From positions 310,001 to 374,000 of the forward strand of contig JAFPWY010000004.1 in the NCBI GenBank assembly GCA_017412605.1: a stretch of DNA of 64,000 bases, read 5' to 3'. Every line of letters starts with the position of its first letter. Position 1 is the first letter of the stretch. This stretch comes from Fibrobacter sp. (lineage in GTDB: Bacteria > Fibrobacterota > Fibrobacteria > Fibrobacterales > Fibrobacteraceae). Of this stretch, positions 3,557-44,395 are shown piece by piece. The position numbers and the translations under genes were made by a program. The notes under the pieces are model-generated. The model searched no databases. It had not been told where the DNA came from and saw nothing but the letters and a program-made list of their open reading frames with translations.

Positions 3557-3805
3557 GCTCGAGGCGCGAGGCACGAGCGATGAGCTATGAGGCTTCGAGA
3601 GACTAGAGAATAGAGAATAGTGAAAAGAATCACGCACTTCGTGCGTCAATAACAGACGGCGAAGCCGTGATATTTCTCCCTAGCCTCTAGATCCTAGCCT
3701 CTAGATCCTCTAATGGAGATTGCTTCAGGGCTTCGCCCTTCGCAATGACAAATCCCTAGATTCTAGCCCCTAGATCCTATCCCCTCTTTTTCTATCTTTC
3801 CCATC
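3557..3805. repeat. Intergenic composite of dispersed repeats
   Basis: This 249-nt gap has no gene. It holds a run of GAGGCACGAG/GATGAGCTATGAG-type words. Two perfect hairpins follow, ACGCAC-TTC-GTGCGT (3632-3646) and ACGGC-GAA-GCCGT (3656-3668). Next come tandem CTAGATCCTAGCCT units. An inverted copy of the ATTGC...GCAAT hairpin seen after pgk lies near 3716-3750. The block 3630-3684 is nearly identical to 10180-10234. Confidence 0.7.
3793..3798 (+). promoter_or_regulatory. Probable -10 element of a leaderless pheA promoter
   Basis: TATCTT ends exactly 7 nt before ATG 3806. The intervening TCCCATC contains no Shine-Dalgarno sequence. Confidence 0.45.
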
Positions 3806-5423: not shown

Positions 5424-7421
5424 TCAGTAATTATCCGCCAAGGTTCCAAGCCCCACGATATTGAAATCGCCTTCGGTCCCCTCATCGCCCTGAAATACAA
5501 ACAGGAGCGATGTCGTTTTGGACGGCGCATCCGCTCCAAATTCTTCCCATTCCACGCACCTTGTCGTCAAGCTATCGCTTTTCGGCAAAGTCACCATGGG
5601 AGATTGAAGAAGGACGGACGGATCTTCGTGTGCGGCAGTATTCATTACAATATCAAGGTCAAACGAAGACGAGTACTTCACACACAGGCCTTCCCAACCC
5701 GTGATATCGCCCGCTTTCATCGATTCGCCATCTGCATCCCTATTGACAATACTAAAGCCAACACCGGCAAATCCCTCGCTTTCAAAATTCAACGAGCCAC
5801 AGAGAGCGCCACAGTAATCGATAATCGGGCCAAGGGACGTCGAATCATAAGCATCACCCTTTGTCACAGGCCAAGTAATCCTCGACGGTTCTCCGTCGCT
5901 CGTATCTTCAACAGAATACCAGTACCCGCATGTCTTGGTTTCATCGCACAGATGCGTGTCAACATTATAGGTATAATCTGATCCAAGCCAAAGATTGTCT
6001 GCCGAGCCTACGCGATTACCCTGACTTCTAGAATTCATGACGGGCTTTTCAATTTTGTCCAAGTTCACCTCGCATGTTCCGTTAGCGGAATACATTCCGA
6101 CGGCAACTATTCCGAAATTCACATCTATCCACTTATCACTTTTCATTACAAACTTCACGAAAGAAATCTCTTCCGCAATTTCGGCGGGAGTAGCCTTGGC
6201 ATTTAACGATACATTGGCGAATTCATCCCAGGCAATGCATTTTTCAACAATTTCGTCACTCCCTTCAAGATCTGCTTGAAGAACGGTATTTTTCCCCCTA
6301 TCCAATTCTAAACTCATGTCAAGGTCAGAGAAATAGGTGACACAGAGCCCACCCCAATCACGGACATTGGAATTATCAACAACAAAGCCAATGCCGGCAT
6401 AGCCCATATCGGACGACCCACTATTTAAGGAGGCCATTCCCGCGATACACCCATAATTACTCGAAAGTATCGAGGACCAGGGATCATCATTAGAATTGCT
6501 CAATTTAACAGGCCAACTGATTGCAGACTTGCCCCCATTCTCGCTATCATCAAAGATACTCCACTCTCCGTCAATCCCATCCATAAAGCCTGCGTTGACT
6601 TGGACCTGCCCATTCCAAAGGCATACGCTCGAGTCCTTCTCCGCAGACGAAGAAGACGATTTCTTCATGGACGAAGATGACGATTTCTTCGTAGACGAAG
6701 AAGATGGCGGATTTTCCTGTTGCCGAACAATATCCGTATAGGAACCGACACCCTTGATGTTAAAAGAGCCATTCTGCTTTTCTTCATTCCTGAATTCAAA
6801 AAGGATGGCACCGAGTTTTTTCACTGCAGATGCACCGGAAGCGCCTTTCTTGTGCGCTTGCTTGAAATCATCCCATTTCGCGCAATGCGTGCTAAACTGT
6901 TTTAGCTTGGGGAATTGCACGAAAGATTCGTCATCGGTATCGTTTTCCGCATCGCTCCTGATTTTCAAATGCATGGCCAGTTCGGACTTGTAAGTCACAC
7001 AAAGTCCGTTCCACGCCGAAACATCCAGCGTAGAGCTATCTGTCCCGAGAGTGAAACCAATACCCGCGCTCATAGGCTTCGAGGATTTGCCAAACTCCAC
7101 CGTTCCGCACAGGCCCTTGCAAGAATCTATAACCGTCGCCATGTCGTCCGAAGAAAGTTCCGTGTTCGCCGTTCCCGCGAATAACACGCGAGCGCCATCA
7201 CCTTCTTCTGTATTGCCATAGCTGAACCAGTGTCCCAGATTTTCATTCCCTACAACCAGCTGAGAATCGGCAAAAGACCACAAATCGTAACTATTCGGAG
7301 TATCCACTTCAAACGCAATGGCATTTTCTTGTTCCGTAACTCCAGCAACCCCGTCGTCAGAACACGCAAAGAAAACATACAAGCAAGCACCCATCAAAAG
7401 CCCGAAAGACTTTTTCAGCAT
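5424..7421 (-). CDS. Large surface lipoprotein with three repeated beta-rich modules
   Basis: This 665-residue product has a type II signal peptide and a lipobox Phe-Phe-Ala-Cys (Cys20). Three homologous modules follow, at roughly 45-230, 265-440 and 465-663. Each carries a core of the type W-S/G-x-L-C-V-T-Y, a C-x-A-W/C-V-E-W turn, and a final hydrophobic strand ending Gly-Val/Leu-Gly. A Ser/Lys linker (SSSSTKKSSSSSMKKSSSSS) separates modules 1 and 2, as is common between domains of fibre-degrading proteins. The module pattern resembles beta-sandwich carbohydrate-binding modules, but I cannot assign a CBM family. The gene starts one nucleotide after the TIGR02147 regulator stop, with its ribosome site inside the regulator's end, so the two form an operon. 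Confidence 0.75.
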   Translation of the reverse strand: MLKKSFGLLMGACLYVFFACSDDGVAGVTEQENAIAFEVDTPNSYDLWSFADSQLVVGNENLGHWFSYGNTEEGDGARVLFAGTANTELSSDDMATVIDSCKGLCGTVEFGKSSKPMSAGIGFTLGTDSSTLDVSAWNGLCVTYKSELAMHLKIRSDAENDTDDESFVQFPKLKQFSTHCAKWDDFKQAHKKGASGASAVKKLGAILFEFRNEEKQNGSFNIKGVGSYTDIVRQQENPPSSSSTKKSSSSSMKKSSSSSAEKDSSVCLWNGQVQVNAGFMDGIDGEWSIFDDSENGGKSAISWPVKLSNSNDDPWSSILSSNYGCIAGMASLNSGSSDMGYAGIGFVVDNSNVRDWGGLCVTYFSDLDMSLELDRGKNTVLQADLEGSDEIVEKCIAWDEFANVSLNAKATPAEIAEEISFVKFVMKSDKWIDVNFGIVAVGMYSANGTCEVNLDKIEKPVMNSRSQGNRVGSADNLWLGSDYTYNVDTHLCDETKTCGYWYSVEDTSDGEPSRITWPVTKGDAYDSTSLGPIIDYCGALCGSLNFESEGFAGVGFSIVNRDADGESMKAGDITGWEGLCVKYSSSFDLDIVMNTAAHEDPSVLLQSPMVTLPKSDSLTTRCVEWEEFGADAPSKTTSLLFVFQGDEGTEGDFNIVGLGTLADNY

Positions 7422-7422
7422 C

Positions 7423-8241
7423 TTATTCGTCCTCCTCCCACGTCAGCGGGAACAACTGTAAATTCAGTCTATAAACACGTTCCGTGCCCCGACTATTCAA
7501 GGCTATACGGGCAATCTTTTTCCGGCATATATCCAATTCCTGCAAAATCTTTTTATAGTCTCCATCAGAAATGCCCATGATAAGGCCCGAAAAATTTCTT
7601 TCGGATGGCGGGAATTTATCTATAGCATCCTTGGCAAATTCAGCCATTTCCCTATGCATGGAACGCAAAGCTACCGGCATTACCGCCGACGTTCCCTTCA
7701 AGTGCCGGTCTACCTGGACGTAGGCTTCGCCTTCCTTTCTGAGGAGGCCATTTTTCACCATAAAGTCAAGCGATTCGCGAACCTCGGCTGCAGTCACTTC
7801 GTGGCAGCATCGTCTTGCGATATCGAGAGGTTTTGCACCGCGCATAACCGGAGCCAGTTCTCTCACGACAGAATGTACCCAGGATTCAAAATACTTGAAG
7901 GCTTCGCCATCGACAACTTTTACCTTGTTGTTCCTTGCCAGTTCCAGCATGGTCTCGAAGGCTTTCTTCTTTTCCAAATCCGTTTCTGCATGGCAATAAG
8001 CAACCATGGACTTGAAATAGTCCAACTCAAAGCCTGCCAAATGGAGTGCGGCCCCCACATTTTCGGCCCCAGCCAAAGAAAGGCGGGTCTTACCTTCACA
8101 AACCAATTTCAAATACGTCGGCGACGAAAAGCCTGCAGAACGAGCGAATTCACGCCACGAAAACGACGAGACACGCTTGCGCTCGTCATAATAATCTTGC
8201 ATATAACGCCGATAGTCCTGATATTCAGTAATCGGTTTCAT
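7423..8241 (-). CDS. TIGR02147 family regulator (DUF4423-like)
   Basis: Member of a paralogous family known from Fibrobacter and some other bacteria, thought to be transcription regulators. The N-terminal half contains a helix-turn-helix-like stretch, SWREFARSAGFSSPTYLKLV (about residues 26-45), and the C-terminal half is the family's conserved domain. I prefer ATG 8241 (272 residues) over ATG 8247, because TATATT lies exactly 7 nt before 8241 and no ribosome site is present. The gene is directly followed by the lipoprotein gene at 7421. The promoter carries the same TGTATCA motif as the paralogous lipoprotein at 9897, so autoregulation and control of both lipoproteins is a reasonable inference. 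Confidence 0.88.
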   Translation of the reverse strand: MKPITEYQDYRRYMQDYYDERKRVSSFSWREFARSAGFSSPTYLKLVCEGKTRLSLAGAENVGAALHLAGFELDYFKSMVAYCHAETDLEKKKAFETMLELARNNKVKVVDGEAFKYFESWVHSVVRELAPVMRGAKPLDIARRCCHEVTAAEVRESLDFMVKNGLLRKEGEAYVQVDRHLKGTSAVMPVALRSMHREMAEFAKDAIDKFPPSERNFSGLIMGISDGDYKKILQELDICRKKIARIALNSRGTERVYRLNLQLFPLTWEEDE

Positions 8242-8248
8242 GAGCATG

Positions 8249-8361
8249 AATATACCATTTTTCCATCATAAAAAAATCATAACGTGATACATTTTGTTTC
8301 AAATTTTACAAACAATCTCAAAAAACAGAAATTCTTAATTTTTTCCTTTTTTTATGATACA
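8249..8361 (-). promoter_or_regulatory. Promoter of the regulator operon with two TGTATCA sites
   Basis: On the minus strand: TATATT at 8249-8254 preceded by TGG, TGTATCA at 8285-8291 exactly 30 nt upstream of the -10, and a second TGTATCA at 8355-8361. The near site also reads TGATACA-TTT-TGTTTCA on the plus strand, an imperfect inverted repeat. The same layout with the same 30-nt spacing is found at 9990-10103. Confidence 0.65.
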
Positions 8362-8386
8362 GTCGATTATTTTATCCAGAGCCTCT

Positions 8387-8427
8387 AAAAAAGAATCGGC
8401 AAGGGACAAAGACATCCCTTACCGATT
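8387..8427 (-). terminator. Rho-independent terminator of the lipoprotein gene 8464-9897
   Basis: The minus-strand stem AATCGGTAAGGGA / TCCCTTGCCGATT has an 8-nt loop and is followed by CTTTTTTA. It lies 37 nt past the stop of the lipoprotein gene and upstream of the regulator promoter. Confidence 0.85.
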
Positions 8428-8463
8428 CACCTCCTACTCCCCGCTATCATTCAGGCGGTTCGA

Positions 8464-9897
8464 TTAATTATTCGCCAAGGTTCCAAGCCCAACGATATTG
8501 AAATTGCCTTCGGTTCCCACACCACCCTCAGCTACAAACAGCAGCGATGTCACATGGGACGAGGCGCCCGCCCCAAATTCATCCCATTCTACACACTTTG
8601 TCGTCAAGCTGTCGCTGCTCGGCAAAGTCACCATAGGAGACTGAAGAAGGGTGGGGGAATTCTCGTATGCGGCACCGTTCATCACGACATCGATGTTCAG
8701 CGAGGATGTGTATTTCACGCACAGGCCTCCCCAACTCGTAATATCGGCCGGTTTCATCGATCCGTCAATTTCATCCTTGTTGACAATGCTAAAGCCAACG
8801 CCGGCAAAGCCCTTGTTTTCGAAATTCAACGCACCACAGAGTCCACCGCAGTAATCGATAATCGGGCTAAGGGATTCACTGTCGTATTCATCGCCCTTGG
8901 ACACCGGCCAAGTAATCCTTGACGGTTCTCCGCTTTCCGTATTTTCAACAGGGAACCAGTAGCCGCATGTTGCAGATTCGTCGCACAGGCGCGTGTCAAC
9001 ACGATAGAGATCATCTGATCCAAGCCAGAGGTCAAATTCCGAGCCAGCGGAATTACCCTGACCAATAGGAATCATGCCGGCATTTTCAATTCGGGACAAG
9101 TCCACGTGACACGAGCCACCAGCGGAATACGTTCCGACTGCGGCTATCCTGAAATTCACGTCTGTGTCTGTAGTGCTCTTCATTACGAACTTCACAGCGG
9201 AAATTTCTCCGGCAATCGCACGGTTGGAAGCATTTGCATTCGACGAAACGTTGATGAAATCATCCCAAGCAATACATTTTTCGACCATCTTGACGTCGCT
9301 TTCCAAGTTGGCAACAAGCACAGTCTCGTTGCCGTTGTCCAATTCCAAGAACATTTCGTGGTCAGAGGCGTAAGTGACGCAAAGTCCGTTCCAGCCGCTA
9401 ATATCGGCAGCAACAGGAGCAGAACCATTACCCACGGGCTGTTCAGCAACAACAAAGCCAACGCCGGCATAGCCCATATTGGACAATTCACCATGTAATG
9501 AGGCCGTTCCCGCGATACACCCATAATTATTCGAAAGAACCAAGGACCATGGGTCATCATAAGGGTTTTCCAGTTCCATAGGCCAGATTATATTGGACGT
9601 TCCCCCAACCTCGCTATCATTAAAGTTCCACCACAGCCCGGCATTCGCGCCACTAAAACCTGTTGCAACAAAGACCTGCTTCGCGCCTCCGTCCCAAAGG
9701 CATATGCCCGGACCATCCAATGCAGACGAAGAAGACGGTGGGTTCCACCCTTGCAATGCAGCGTTCCCGTTGGACCCCGTTCCATCGATATTGATAGACC
9801 CTTCCGGCACAGCATTTGCGGTATCAAACATTTCGTTACACCCGACAAGTCCAAACAGAATCGCACCCATCGGCAGTATATGTTTCGCTTTCAACAT
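8464..9897 (-). CDS. Surface lipoprotein with two repeated beta-rich modules (paralogue of 5424-7421)
   Basis: This 477-residue product has a lipobox Gly-Leu-Val-Gly-Cys (Cys20), then a short Asn/Gly/Ser linker with PPSSSS. Two modules follow (about 65-260 and 285-475) that align closely with modules 2 and 3 of the lipoprotein at 5424. Shared strings include WPMELENPYDDPWS against WPVKLSNSNDDPWS, and both proteins end FNIVGLGTLA. It lacks module 1 of its paralogue. The start is ATG 9897 with AGGAGG at 9907-9912. The gene is monocistronic with its own terminator. Function is unknown; a surface carbohydrate-binding or scaffold role is the most natural guess. Confidence 0.75.
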   Translation of the reverse strand: MLKAKHILPMGAILFGLVGCNEMFDTANAVPEGSINIDGTGSNGNAALQGWNPPSSSSALDGPGICLWDGGAKQVFVATGFSGANAGLWWNFNDSEVGGTSNIIWPMELENPYDDPWSLVLSNNYGCIAGTASLHGELSNMGYAGVGFVVAEQPVGNGSAPVAADISGWNGLCVTYASDHEMFLELDNGNETVLVANLESDVKMVEKCIAWDDFINVSSNANASNRAIAGEISAVKFVMKSTTDTDVNFRIAAVGTYSAGGSCHVDLSRIENAGMIPIGQGNSAGSEFDLWLGSDDLYRVDTRLCDESATCGYWFPVENTESGEPSRITWPVSKGDEYDSESLSPIIDYCGGLCGALNFENKGFAGVGFSIVNKDEIDGSMKPADITSWGGLCVKYTSSLNIDVVMNGAAYENSPTLLQSPMVTLPSSDSLTTKCVEWDEFGAGASSHVTSLLFVAEGGVGTEGNFNIVGLGTLANN

Positions 9898-9906
9898 TAT
9901 TTTATT

Positions 9907-9926
9907 CCTCCTATCACTCTCGTGAT
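9907..9926 (-). promoter_or_regulatory. GNRA hairpin abutting the Shine-Dalgarno of the 9897 lipoprotein
   Basis: On the minus strand ATCAC-GAGA-GTGAT (9913-9926) is a 5-bp stem with a GNRA tetraloop. AGGAGG (9907-9912) follows it immediately. The hairpin leaves the ribosome site free but adjacent, so it may modulate initiation or protect the 5' end. Confidence 0.4.
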
Positions 9927-9989
9927 CTAGTTTGTTTTAACGCTCAGACAATTTTTTAAACAACTTAACCAATTGTCTTTGCACCAACA

Positions 9990-10103
9990 AATATACCACT
10001 CATTTATTCAAAAAATCGAATTTTATGATACATTTTTTACGATTTTACACAAAAATATAAACCAAAATACACTTTATAAAAAATCTGTATTTTCATGATA
10101 CAG
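9990..10103 (-). promoter_or_regulatory. Promoter of the 9897 lipoprotein with two TGTATCA sites
   Basis: On the minus strand TATATT is at 9990-9995 preceded by TGG. TGTATCA at 10026-10032 is exactly 30 nt upstream of it. A second TGTATCA, in the context GACTGTATCAT, is at 10097-10103. The predicted transcript start is near 9982, giving an 85-nt leader. Confidence 0.65.
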
Positions 10104-10279
10104 TCTTGAGCAGAAAGCCATGAGCGATGAGGTATGAGTAATGAGATTGAGGCTCGAGGCACGAGGCTAGTGAATAAGTATCACGCACTTCGTGCGTTTA
10201 TAACAGACGGCGAAGCCGTGATATTTCTCCCTAGTCCCTAGATCCTAGTCTCTAGATCCTAGTCTCTAGATTCTAACCT
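10104..10279. repeat. Intergenic composite of dispersed repeats
   Basis: The gap between the lipoprotein promoter and hisH holds no gene. It contains GATGAGGTATGAG-type words, a 55-nt block (10180-10234) differing at only about two positions from 3630-3684, and tandem CTAGATCCTAGTCT units up to the hisH stop. The paired hairpins CGCAC-TTC-GTGCG and ACGGC-GAA-GCCGT are conserved. Confidence 0.7.
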
Positions 10280-16024: not shown

Positions 16025-16055
16025 ACTCCGCAACATCGTTTGCGGAGTTTTTTTT
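16025..16055 (+). terminator. Rho-independent terminator 1 after pgk
   Basis: The stem ACTCCGCAA / TTGCGGAGT has a 6-nt loop and is followed by eight T. Confidence 0.9.
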
Positions 16056-16257
16056 CTCGCTCGTAACTGAAAATGCATTGTCATTGCGAACCCCGTAGGG
16101 GTGAAGCAATCTCCATCCGGAATTTTATAGGAACTCCCGTTTGCGGGAGTTCTTTTTTTTCTCGCTCGTAACTGAAAAGGCGTTGTCATTGCGAGCCCCG
16201 TAGGGGTGAAGCAATCTCCATCCGGAATTTTATAGGAACTCCCGTTTGCGGGAGTTC
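16048..16257. repeat. 105-bp tandem duplication carrying terminators and an ATTGC...GCAAT hairpin
   Basis: Copy 1 is about 16048-16152 and copy 2 about 16153-16257, offset by exactly 105 bp with only a few differences. Each unit contains CTCGCTCGTAACTGAAAA, a hairpin of the type ATTGCGA-CCCC-GTA-GGGG-GAAGCAAT, and a terminator stem GAACTCCCG/CGGGAGTTC with a T-run. Confidence 0.85.
16131..16160 (+). terminator. Rho-independent terminator 2 after pgk
   Basis: The stem GAACTCCCG / CGGGAGTTC has loop TTTG and is followed by eight T. An identical copy lies 105 bp downstream. Confidence 0.85.
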
Positions 16258-16265
16258 TTTTTTTT
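16236..16265 (+). terminator. Rho-independent terminator 3 after pgk
   Basis: Second copy of the GAACTCCCG / CGGGAGTTC hairpin with its T-run, part of the tandem duplication. Confidence 0.85.
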
Positions 16266-44224: not shown

Positions 44225-44395
44225 AAATAGTGGTTTGTGGTTAGTGGTTGGTGGTTAGGATCTAGAGCCTAGAGGTTAGGATCTAGGGGATTTTCAATGG
44301 AAATTTAATTCTTTCGCGTTTTAGCGCGGAGGATGCAAAGTTGTTTATAGGGGTTTTTAGGAGGCCCGAGCCTCGAGCCTGGGGCCCCGAGCCGG
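44225..44395. repeat. Intergenic composite of dispersed repeats
   Basis: This 171-nt gap contains GGTTAGTGGTTGGTGGTTAGG, GGATCTAGAGCCTAGAGGTTAGG words and a CGCGTTTTAGCGCGG hairpin like the one at 56044. CCCGAGCCTCGAGCC words near 44365 abut the RND pump stop. Confidence 0.55.

Follow-up and report, generated by a model that had tools for sequence, protein, structure and literature searches.

Candidate autoregulation of TIGR02147 regulator-lipoprotein operons in Fibrobacter through paired, paralog-specific promoter sites

Introduction

The C proteins of type II R-M systems (C.PvuII, C.AhdI, and C.BclI) are XRE-type regulators that exert autogenous control over their operons from sites located just upstream of the promoter, with the controller gene abutting or overlapping the effector gene. 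For example, C.PvuII is an autogenous activator whose gene overlaps the effector gene and whose activated mRNA is leaderless, starting from the controller initiator codon (PMC2997769). Phage repressors of the 434/P22/lambda type share the HTH fold (matching residues 9–84 of the regulator studied here), although their domain architecture and genomic role are different.

Here, we analyzed a 64-kb stretch of a Fibrobacter sp. genome (hereafter, the window) that encodes a TIGR02147/DUF4423 regulator flanked by two paralogous lipoprotein genes, lip1 and lip2. The fold, the position of the sites, the abutting gene layout and, we infer, the autogenous control of the C proteins recur at this locus, and by analogy C.PvuII can be regarded as the closest working analogue of the TIGR02147 regulator. 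However, C proteins are small and single-domain, whereas the regulator has 274 aa with winged-helix and helical parts; their C-boxes are adjacent, whereas the TIGR02147 sites lie about 71 bp apart; and their partners are R-M genes, whereas the partner here is a lipoprotein. The regulator was therefore rejected as a C protein on size, domains, and genomic context. Unlike in the phage repressors, recognition varies here over dozens of co-resident paralogs. A literature search returned no function or DNA target described for TIGR02147/DUF4423; DUF4423 was named once, in passing, in Bdellovibrio proteome work, and TIGR02147 was not named.

Results

The regulator and its family

The genes of the locus are encoded as follows:

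5424–7421, minus strand: lipoprotein lip1 (lipobox LYVFFAC), a paralog of lip2 (592 bits)
7423–8247, minus strand: TIGR02147/DUF4423 regulator, 274 aa, with TIGR02147 and PF14394 profile matches
8098–8121, minus strand: codons of recognition-helix residues 43–50 (P T Y L K L V C), assigned from the structure model and covariation
8464–9897, minus strand: lipoprotein lip2, 477 aa (lipobox FGLVGC)

The regulator matches TIGR02147 (Fsuc_second) over model positions 1–270 of 272 (291.8 bits, cut-off 50), and its C-terminal domain matches DUF4423 (PF14394; 97.9 bits, gathering score 30, 7e-28). The real start is likely the ATG at 8241 (MKPI); counted from there, P43 and L48 of the window ORF are P41 and L46. 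In the AlphaFold model (pLDDT 88), helices 31–37, 45–50, and 58–67 make up an XRE-type HTH, with P43 opening the recognition helix and L48 inside it (window ORF numbering). Using VIA-align, we matched residues 8–90 to HigA, P22 c2, 434 Cro, and C proteins (Z 6–8.8) and residues 110–190 to ArsR-like winged helices (Z about 6), both middling scores; the fold matches include C.BclI, C.AhdI, and C.Esp1396I. By sequence, the regulator gave no match to Pfam HTH_3 and no significant match to solved structures. The model supports an XRE/Cro-type HTH fold in the N-terminal domain and hints weakly at membership of the XRE family itself.

There are 33 TIGR02147 genes in this 3.53-Mb genome. The family is carried by 61/61 Fibrobacter genomes sampled (6 to at least 35 matches each) and by 111/121 genomes sampled across the phylum. 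TIGR02147/DUF4423 is among the most expanded regulator families of Fibrobacterota.

Lipoproteins and operon layout

The start codon of lip1 lies 1 nt past the regulator stop, and most regulator-lipoprotein junctions in the subfamily overlap or abut. Of the subfamily genes, 211 had sufficient sequence downstream, and a lipoprotein start was found within −60 to +150 nt after at least 195 of these regulators, compared to 53/286 control genes; several of the 16 non-scoring downstream genes resemble lipoproteins by eye. A TAGVTEEENSIAFEV segment, possibly a sorting or interaction signal, is conserved behind the lipidated cysteine in most lip1-type lipoproteins (N-termini of lip1 and its orthologs).

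The lip2 model (pLDDT 74) contains two predicted beta-jelly-roll domains like CBM11/CIA30, with single-domain matches to CBM11 (1v0a, 6r3m, and 2lro; TMt about 0.5, about 10% identity) and a multidomain match to the surface glycan-binding lipoprotein SGBP-B of B. thetaiotaomicron (about 10% identity). As a lead from these modelled folds, lip2 and the related lipoproteins may perhaps bind glycans. Kinship of lip2 with Vip3, Cry, or EngBF, the top multidomain Foldseek rows (rmsd 17–19), was rejected, the shared parts being generic jelly rolls.

Paired sites in the two window promoters

The sites of the two promoters, including the candidate operators, are as follows:

8354–8361, minus strand: distal operator TGTATCAT of the regulator operon (TGTATCA at 8355–8361), at −120 from the MKPI ATG; GTATCAT invariant in 9 orthologs
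8285–8291, minus strand: proximal half-site TGTATCA of the regulator operon, 70 nt downstream of the distal site, conserved in orthologs
8249–8254, minus strand: −10 box TATATT of the regulator operon, extended, with TGG ahead
10095–10102, minus strand: distal operator TGTATCAT of the lip2 promoter (TGTATCA at 10096–10102), inside TGTATCATGAAAATACA
10025–10032, minus strand: proximal half-site TGTATCAT of the lip2 promoter (TGTATCA at 10026–10032), conserved
9990–9995, minus strand: −10 box TATATT of the lip2 promoter, extended, with TGG ahead
9907–9912, minus strand: Shine-Dalgarno AGGAGG of lip2, whose predicted transcript has a leader

On the minus strand, the regulator and lip2 promoters alike read TGTATCA, 63 nt, TGTATCA, 30 nt, and TATATT preceded by TGG, with unlike sequence between the sites. 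An earlier reading of the sequence alone (hereafter, the sequence-only reading) had described this common architecture with differing in-between sequence, which the exact coordinates confirm; of the 70–71 nt that it gave for the distance between the TGTATCA sites, 70 nt is exact in both promoters and 71 nt was found in neither. A good −35 is absent and an extended −10 present in both. The MKPI ATG (8241) lies at about +1 of the regulator promoter, and the regulator mRNA starting there is predicted to be leaderless.

Compared across 9 regulator orthologs, essentially only GTATCAT, GTATCA, the TATATT box, and the start codon are invariant. Three close orthologs retain the lip2 promoter, its two sites again 70 nt apart, and GTATCATGAAAATACA at its distal operator is invariant in 4 species.

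Other repeats were also observed in the window. Low-complexity intergenic repeats (10228–10275, 3679–3709, 3754–3785, 10128, 58104, and 44228–44258) comprise 14-nt phased CCTAGTCTCTAGAT arrays, TGAGGTATGAG, and TAGTGGTTGGTGGT, and CTAGWYYCTAG was observed 7 times compared to 0.04 expected. Similar low-complexity elements lie upstream of other TIGR02147 genes (L024 and L026). At 16048–16265, there is a 105-bp tandem duplication (97% identical) with a hairpin-like GGAACTCCCGTTTGCGGGAGTTC unit.

Genomic distribution of the motif

The half-site by itself is near chance in the window (TGTATCA: 8 observed, 4.4 expected), with 4 of the 8 occurrences in the two promoters. Genome-wide, the 8-mer TGTATCAT shows no enrichment (50 occurrences, compared to 51 for the reversed control), and a genome-wide regulon defined by the single half-site was rejected on this ground. 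Of the 50 occurrences, 13 are located no more than 150 nt 5' of a TIGR02147 gene, where 0.07 would be expected, and 2 more lie at lip2.

The combined patterns are far more restricted. A scan for TGTATCA followed by TATATT, as proposed by the sequence-only reading, gave 5 matches to TGTATCAN{29,31}TATATT in the 3.53-Mb genome (control: 0), all upstream of a TIGR02147 gene or lip2, and the exact TGTATCA pair occurs in this genome at the two window promoters only. The pattern TGTATCAN{62,66}TGTATCA has 62 matches in 37/80 Fibrobacter genomes (reversed control: 1). In 30 of these loci that were read, a full TIGR02147 ORF stands right behind the proximal site in 24 and a truncated ORF in 1; the remaining loci are coding repeats, two unrelated places (L077 and L082), and a contig end (L073). 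The coding repeats (L076 in G055 and L087 in G049) are false positives, in which TGTATCA pairs 72 bp apart lie inside protein-coding tandem repeats, the encoded proteins probably being BspA-like surface proteins. The TGTATCA pair as a general promoter element was rejected, the examined matches away from TIGR02147 genes being mainly such 72-bp repeats. Frequent occurrence of the motif in promoters of unrelated genes, which the sequence-only reading had named as refuting its proposal, was looked for and not found: lone half-sites are at background, and the full architecture is restricted to TIGR02147/lipoprotein promoters, barring coding repeats and a few isolated places.

Promoter architecture across the subfamily

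Paralogs in the same genome show the same promoter layout with other words (e.g., TGTTTCAT, TGTTGCATA, TGTATAGTATTTTC, and TGTATAATTTAG). The architecture that had been noticed at two promoters is thus real but not special to them, being general to a TIGR02147 subfamily. Among 212 distinct Fibrobacter subfamily promoters, the best self-repeat lag is 70–73 in 96 (about 10 expected), and 104 reach a repeat-plus-palindrome score of at least 11 at lags 69–75, compared to 3–8 in each of five control lag ranges. The other 108 fall under this strict repeat threshold; 41 of them have a unique site at −57 to −46.

At the distal site, the half-site is paired with an inverted copy across a gap of 3 nt (mean identity 0.55, compared to about 0.3 background), whereas a half-site partner sought at the proximal site was not found (identity 0.28). 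The DNA between the two sites contains A/T tracts. The proximal site begins 50–52 nt ahead of the ATG in 62/104 promoters; judged from sequence, it consists of one half-site directly upstream of the −35. A −10-like box was found in 64/72 promoters of this geometry, and many subfamily promoters have a good TTGAC −35. The −10 end lies 7 nt from the ATG in 33/64 and 5–9 nt in 61/64, as measured on sequence, and a Shine-Dalgarno was found in only 4/72 promoters of this geometry. Based on this spacing and the scarcity of Shine-Dalgarno sequences, most regulator mRNAs are predicted to be leaderless.

The 71-nt architecture could not be extended to all TIGR02147 genes: the divergent subfamilies mostly lack it, and none was found in the L001-, L003-, L006-, and L036-like subfamilies. 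Upstream of L002-like genes (L264, L290–L293, and L295), repeated GTGTTCCC words occur with looser spacing, which suggests that this subfamily may have its own autoregulatory array. At C6:143–157 kb of the same genome (L046 and L047), four TIGR02147-lipoprotein units are arranged head-to-tail, with a TATTGTGAAA-like word in their promoters and longer leaders with Shine-Dalgarno sequences.

Covariation between site words and recognition helices

Promoters for the covariation analysis were chosen blind to the protein. The half-site words sort by recognition helix:

Helix SP[T/S/I/V]-YLK-L: TGTATCAT
Helix SPNF: TGTATAAT or TGTATAGTA
Helix SSGYLKL: TGTTTCAT
Helix SSSYMKV: TGTTGCATA
Helix SPSYMKV: mostly TGTAGCATA
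Helix SSNY: TGTGTTAT
Helix SPSYLK[M/D/T]: TGTACTATA

The window promoters conform to this table, TGTATCA being paired with a Pro41/Leu46 helix as expected. Once the rest of the protein is accounted for, the distance between motifs is correlated with the distance between helices (partial Mantel r 0.487, 0/500 permutations), whereas the distance of the C-terminal domain shows no correlation with the motif (−0.20). When all 276 protein columns were scanned without bias, recognition-helix residues 46 and 41 (MKPI numbering) ranked highest, with base 4 following residue 41 (partial r 0.79) and base 5 following residue 46 (partial r 0.69). Anchored on a shared glycine, residues 41, 42, and 46 align with Gln28, Gln29, and Gln33 of 434, the classic specificity residues.

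Joint changes were then counted on trees that left out the helix or used the C-terminal domain only. Residue 41 changed jointly with base 4 on 7–8 branches, which 0 of 68–99 columns of similar rate match; residue 46 and base 5 show 2 joint changes, matched by 0/41 and 1/62 columns. A reading of base 6 by residue 42, visible in the helix-group table, was unsupported on the tree.

The same pairings recur in the 41 below-threshold promoters with a site at the expected place, which include orthologs of training sequences and are not fully independent: Pro41 occurs with A4 in 27/30 and Ser41 with T4/G4 in 9/9, and Leu46 occurs with T5 in 27/29 and Val46 with G5 in 6/9. In five other genera of the family, 12/12 examined subfamily promoters carry a repeated motif (lag 70–75), and the repeated word is the one expected from the helix in nearly all.

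Discussion

Our main reading, to which we assign a probability of about 0.8 based on these sequence comparisons, is that TIGR02147 proteins of this subfamily are XRE-type autoregulators with paralog-specific operators, and that the window regulator governs its own operon and lip2. The regulator would be a transcription factor with an N-terminal XRE-type HTH followed by a winged helix and then a helical C-terminal part, controlling the regulator-lip1 operon and the neighbouring paralogous lip2. A dimer would bind the distal site at about −120 (an inverted repeat, half-N3-half, in most paralogs) and reach over about 71 bp of A/T-tract DNA to the half-site at about −50, where, just upstream of the −35 region, the regulator would act on RNA polymerase. 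Each paralog group would have its own half-site word, read mainly by residue 41 (base 4) and residue 46 (base 5), and Fibrobacter would hold about 20 such regulator-lipoprotein operons side by side, each autoregulated and partly insulated from the others in specificity. XRE-type autoregulation as such is known; what appears new is the unusual bipartite operator and the co-evolved specificities across the family.

The most likely sign of control is autogenous activation: the half-site is situated outside the core promoter, and a poor −35 is combined with an extended −10 in both window promoters, as is typical of activated promoters. Repression by looping, in which the distal dimer and the proximal half-site would shut the promoter until a signal arrives (negative autoregulation), would suit the two sites, their near-fixed spacing, and the A/T tracts between them, and the good TTGAC −35 of many subfamily promoters suggests that an activator may be unneeded there; the position of the proximal half-site and the −10/−35 composition of the window promoters argue the other way, and we consider repression possible but doubtful. 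A different reading concerns who else uses the sites. A similar helix and a TGTATCA half-site or near variant are found in at least six further paralogs of the same genome, so cross-talk is possible and the insulation of the window regulon is uncertain. The window sites might then be read by, or common to, the SP[T/S/I/V]-helix paralogs (L010, L014, L016, L018, L025, and L028), whose own promoters have such half-sites; however, the flanks after TGTATCAT differ consistently among paralogs (TTCC, TTTA, and GA), and the exact pair is confined to the window promoters. Such cross-wiring is a real prospect, if somewhat short of probable. The small regulon proposed by the sequence-only reading (the regulator, its co-transcribed lipoprotein, and the paralogous lipoprotein) is supported by the covariation of site and helix, with the regulator as the putative binding protein, while TGTATCA is not private to the window pair.

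Two further explanations were considered, and both are very improbable. That the sites belong to another, unlinked regulator, a doubt raised by the sequence-only reading, would fit a motif found upstream of many genes in a common architecture, but a single regulator of all these genes would be expected to have a single site, whereas the paralog sites differ. The site words follow the recognition helix of the neighbouring regulator, and they do so once phylogeny is controlled for, in promoters not used for training, and in further genera. The site of an unrelated regulator would not behave in this way, and the doubt is thus largely answered. The likeness of the two window promoters might also have come only from a tandem duplication that gave rise to reg-lip1 and lip2, with the sites unselected: lip1 and lip2 are paralogs, and related loci carry tandem reg-lip units. 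Yet the sequence between the sites has diverged while the sites are invariant in other species at both promoters, and this conservation largely refutes the explanation, since duplication accounts for origin and not for retention.

We also raise, as a speculation that we think rather unlikely, that each of the approximately 20 paralogous units in a genome works as a positive-feedback switch of its own, behind diverged and largely insulated operators, giving stable on/off states of individual surface lipoproteins, perhaps glycan-binding ones, in single cells. If true, this would be a bistable surface repertoire without DNA rearrangement, built by repeated duplication of a recognition pair.

For TIGR02147, a concrete operator, its geometry, a target operon, and a residue-to-base rule are now proposed. 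The analysis ties these regulators to dozens of surface lipoproteins in a gut lineage that is key to fibre degradation, and the paralogs would provide a set of naturally co-evolving protein-DNA pairs in which to follow how paralogous regulators become insulated from each other.
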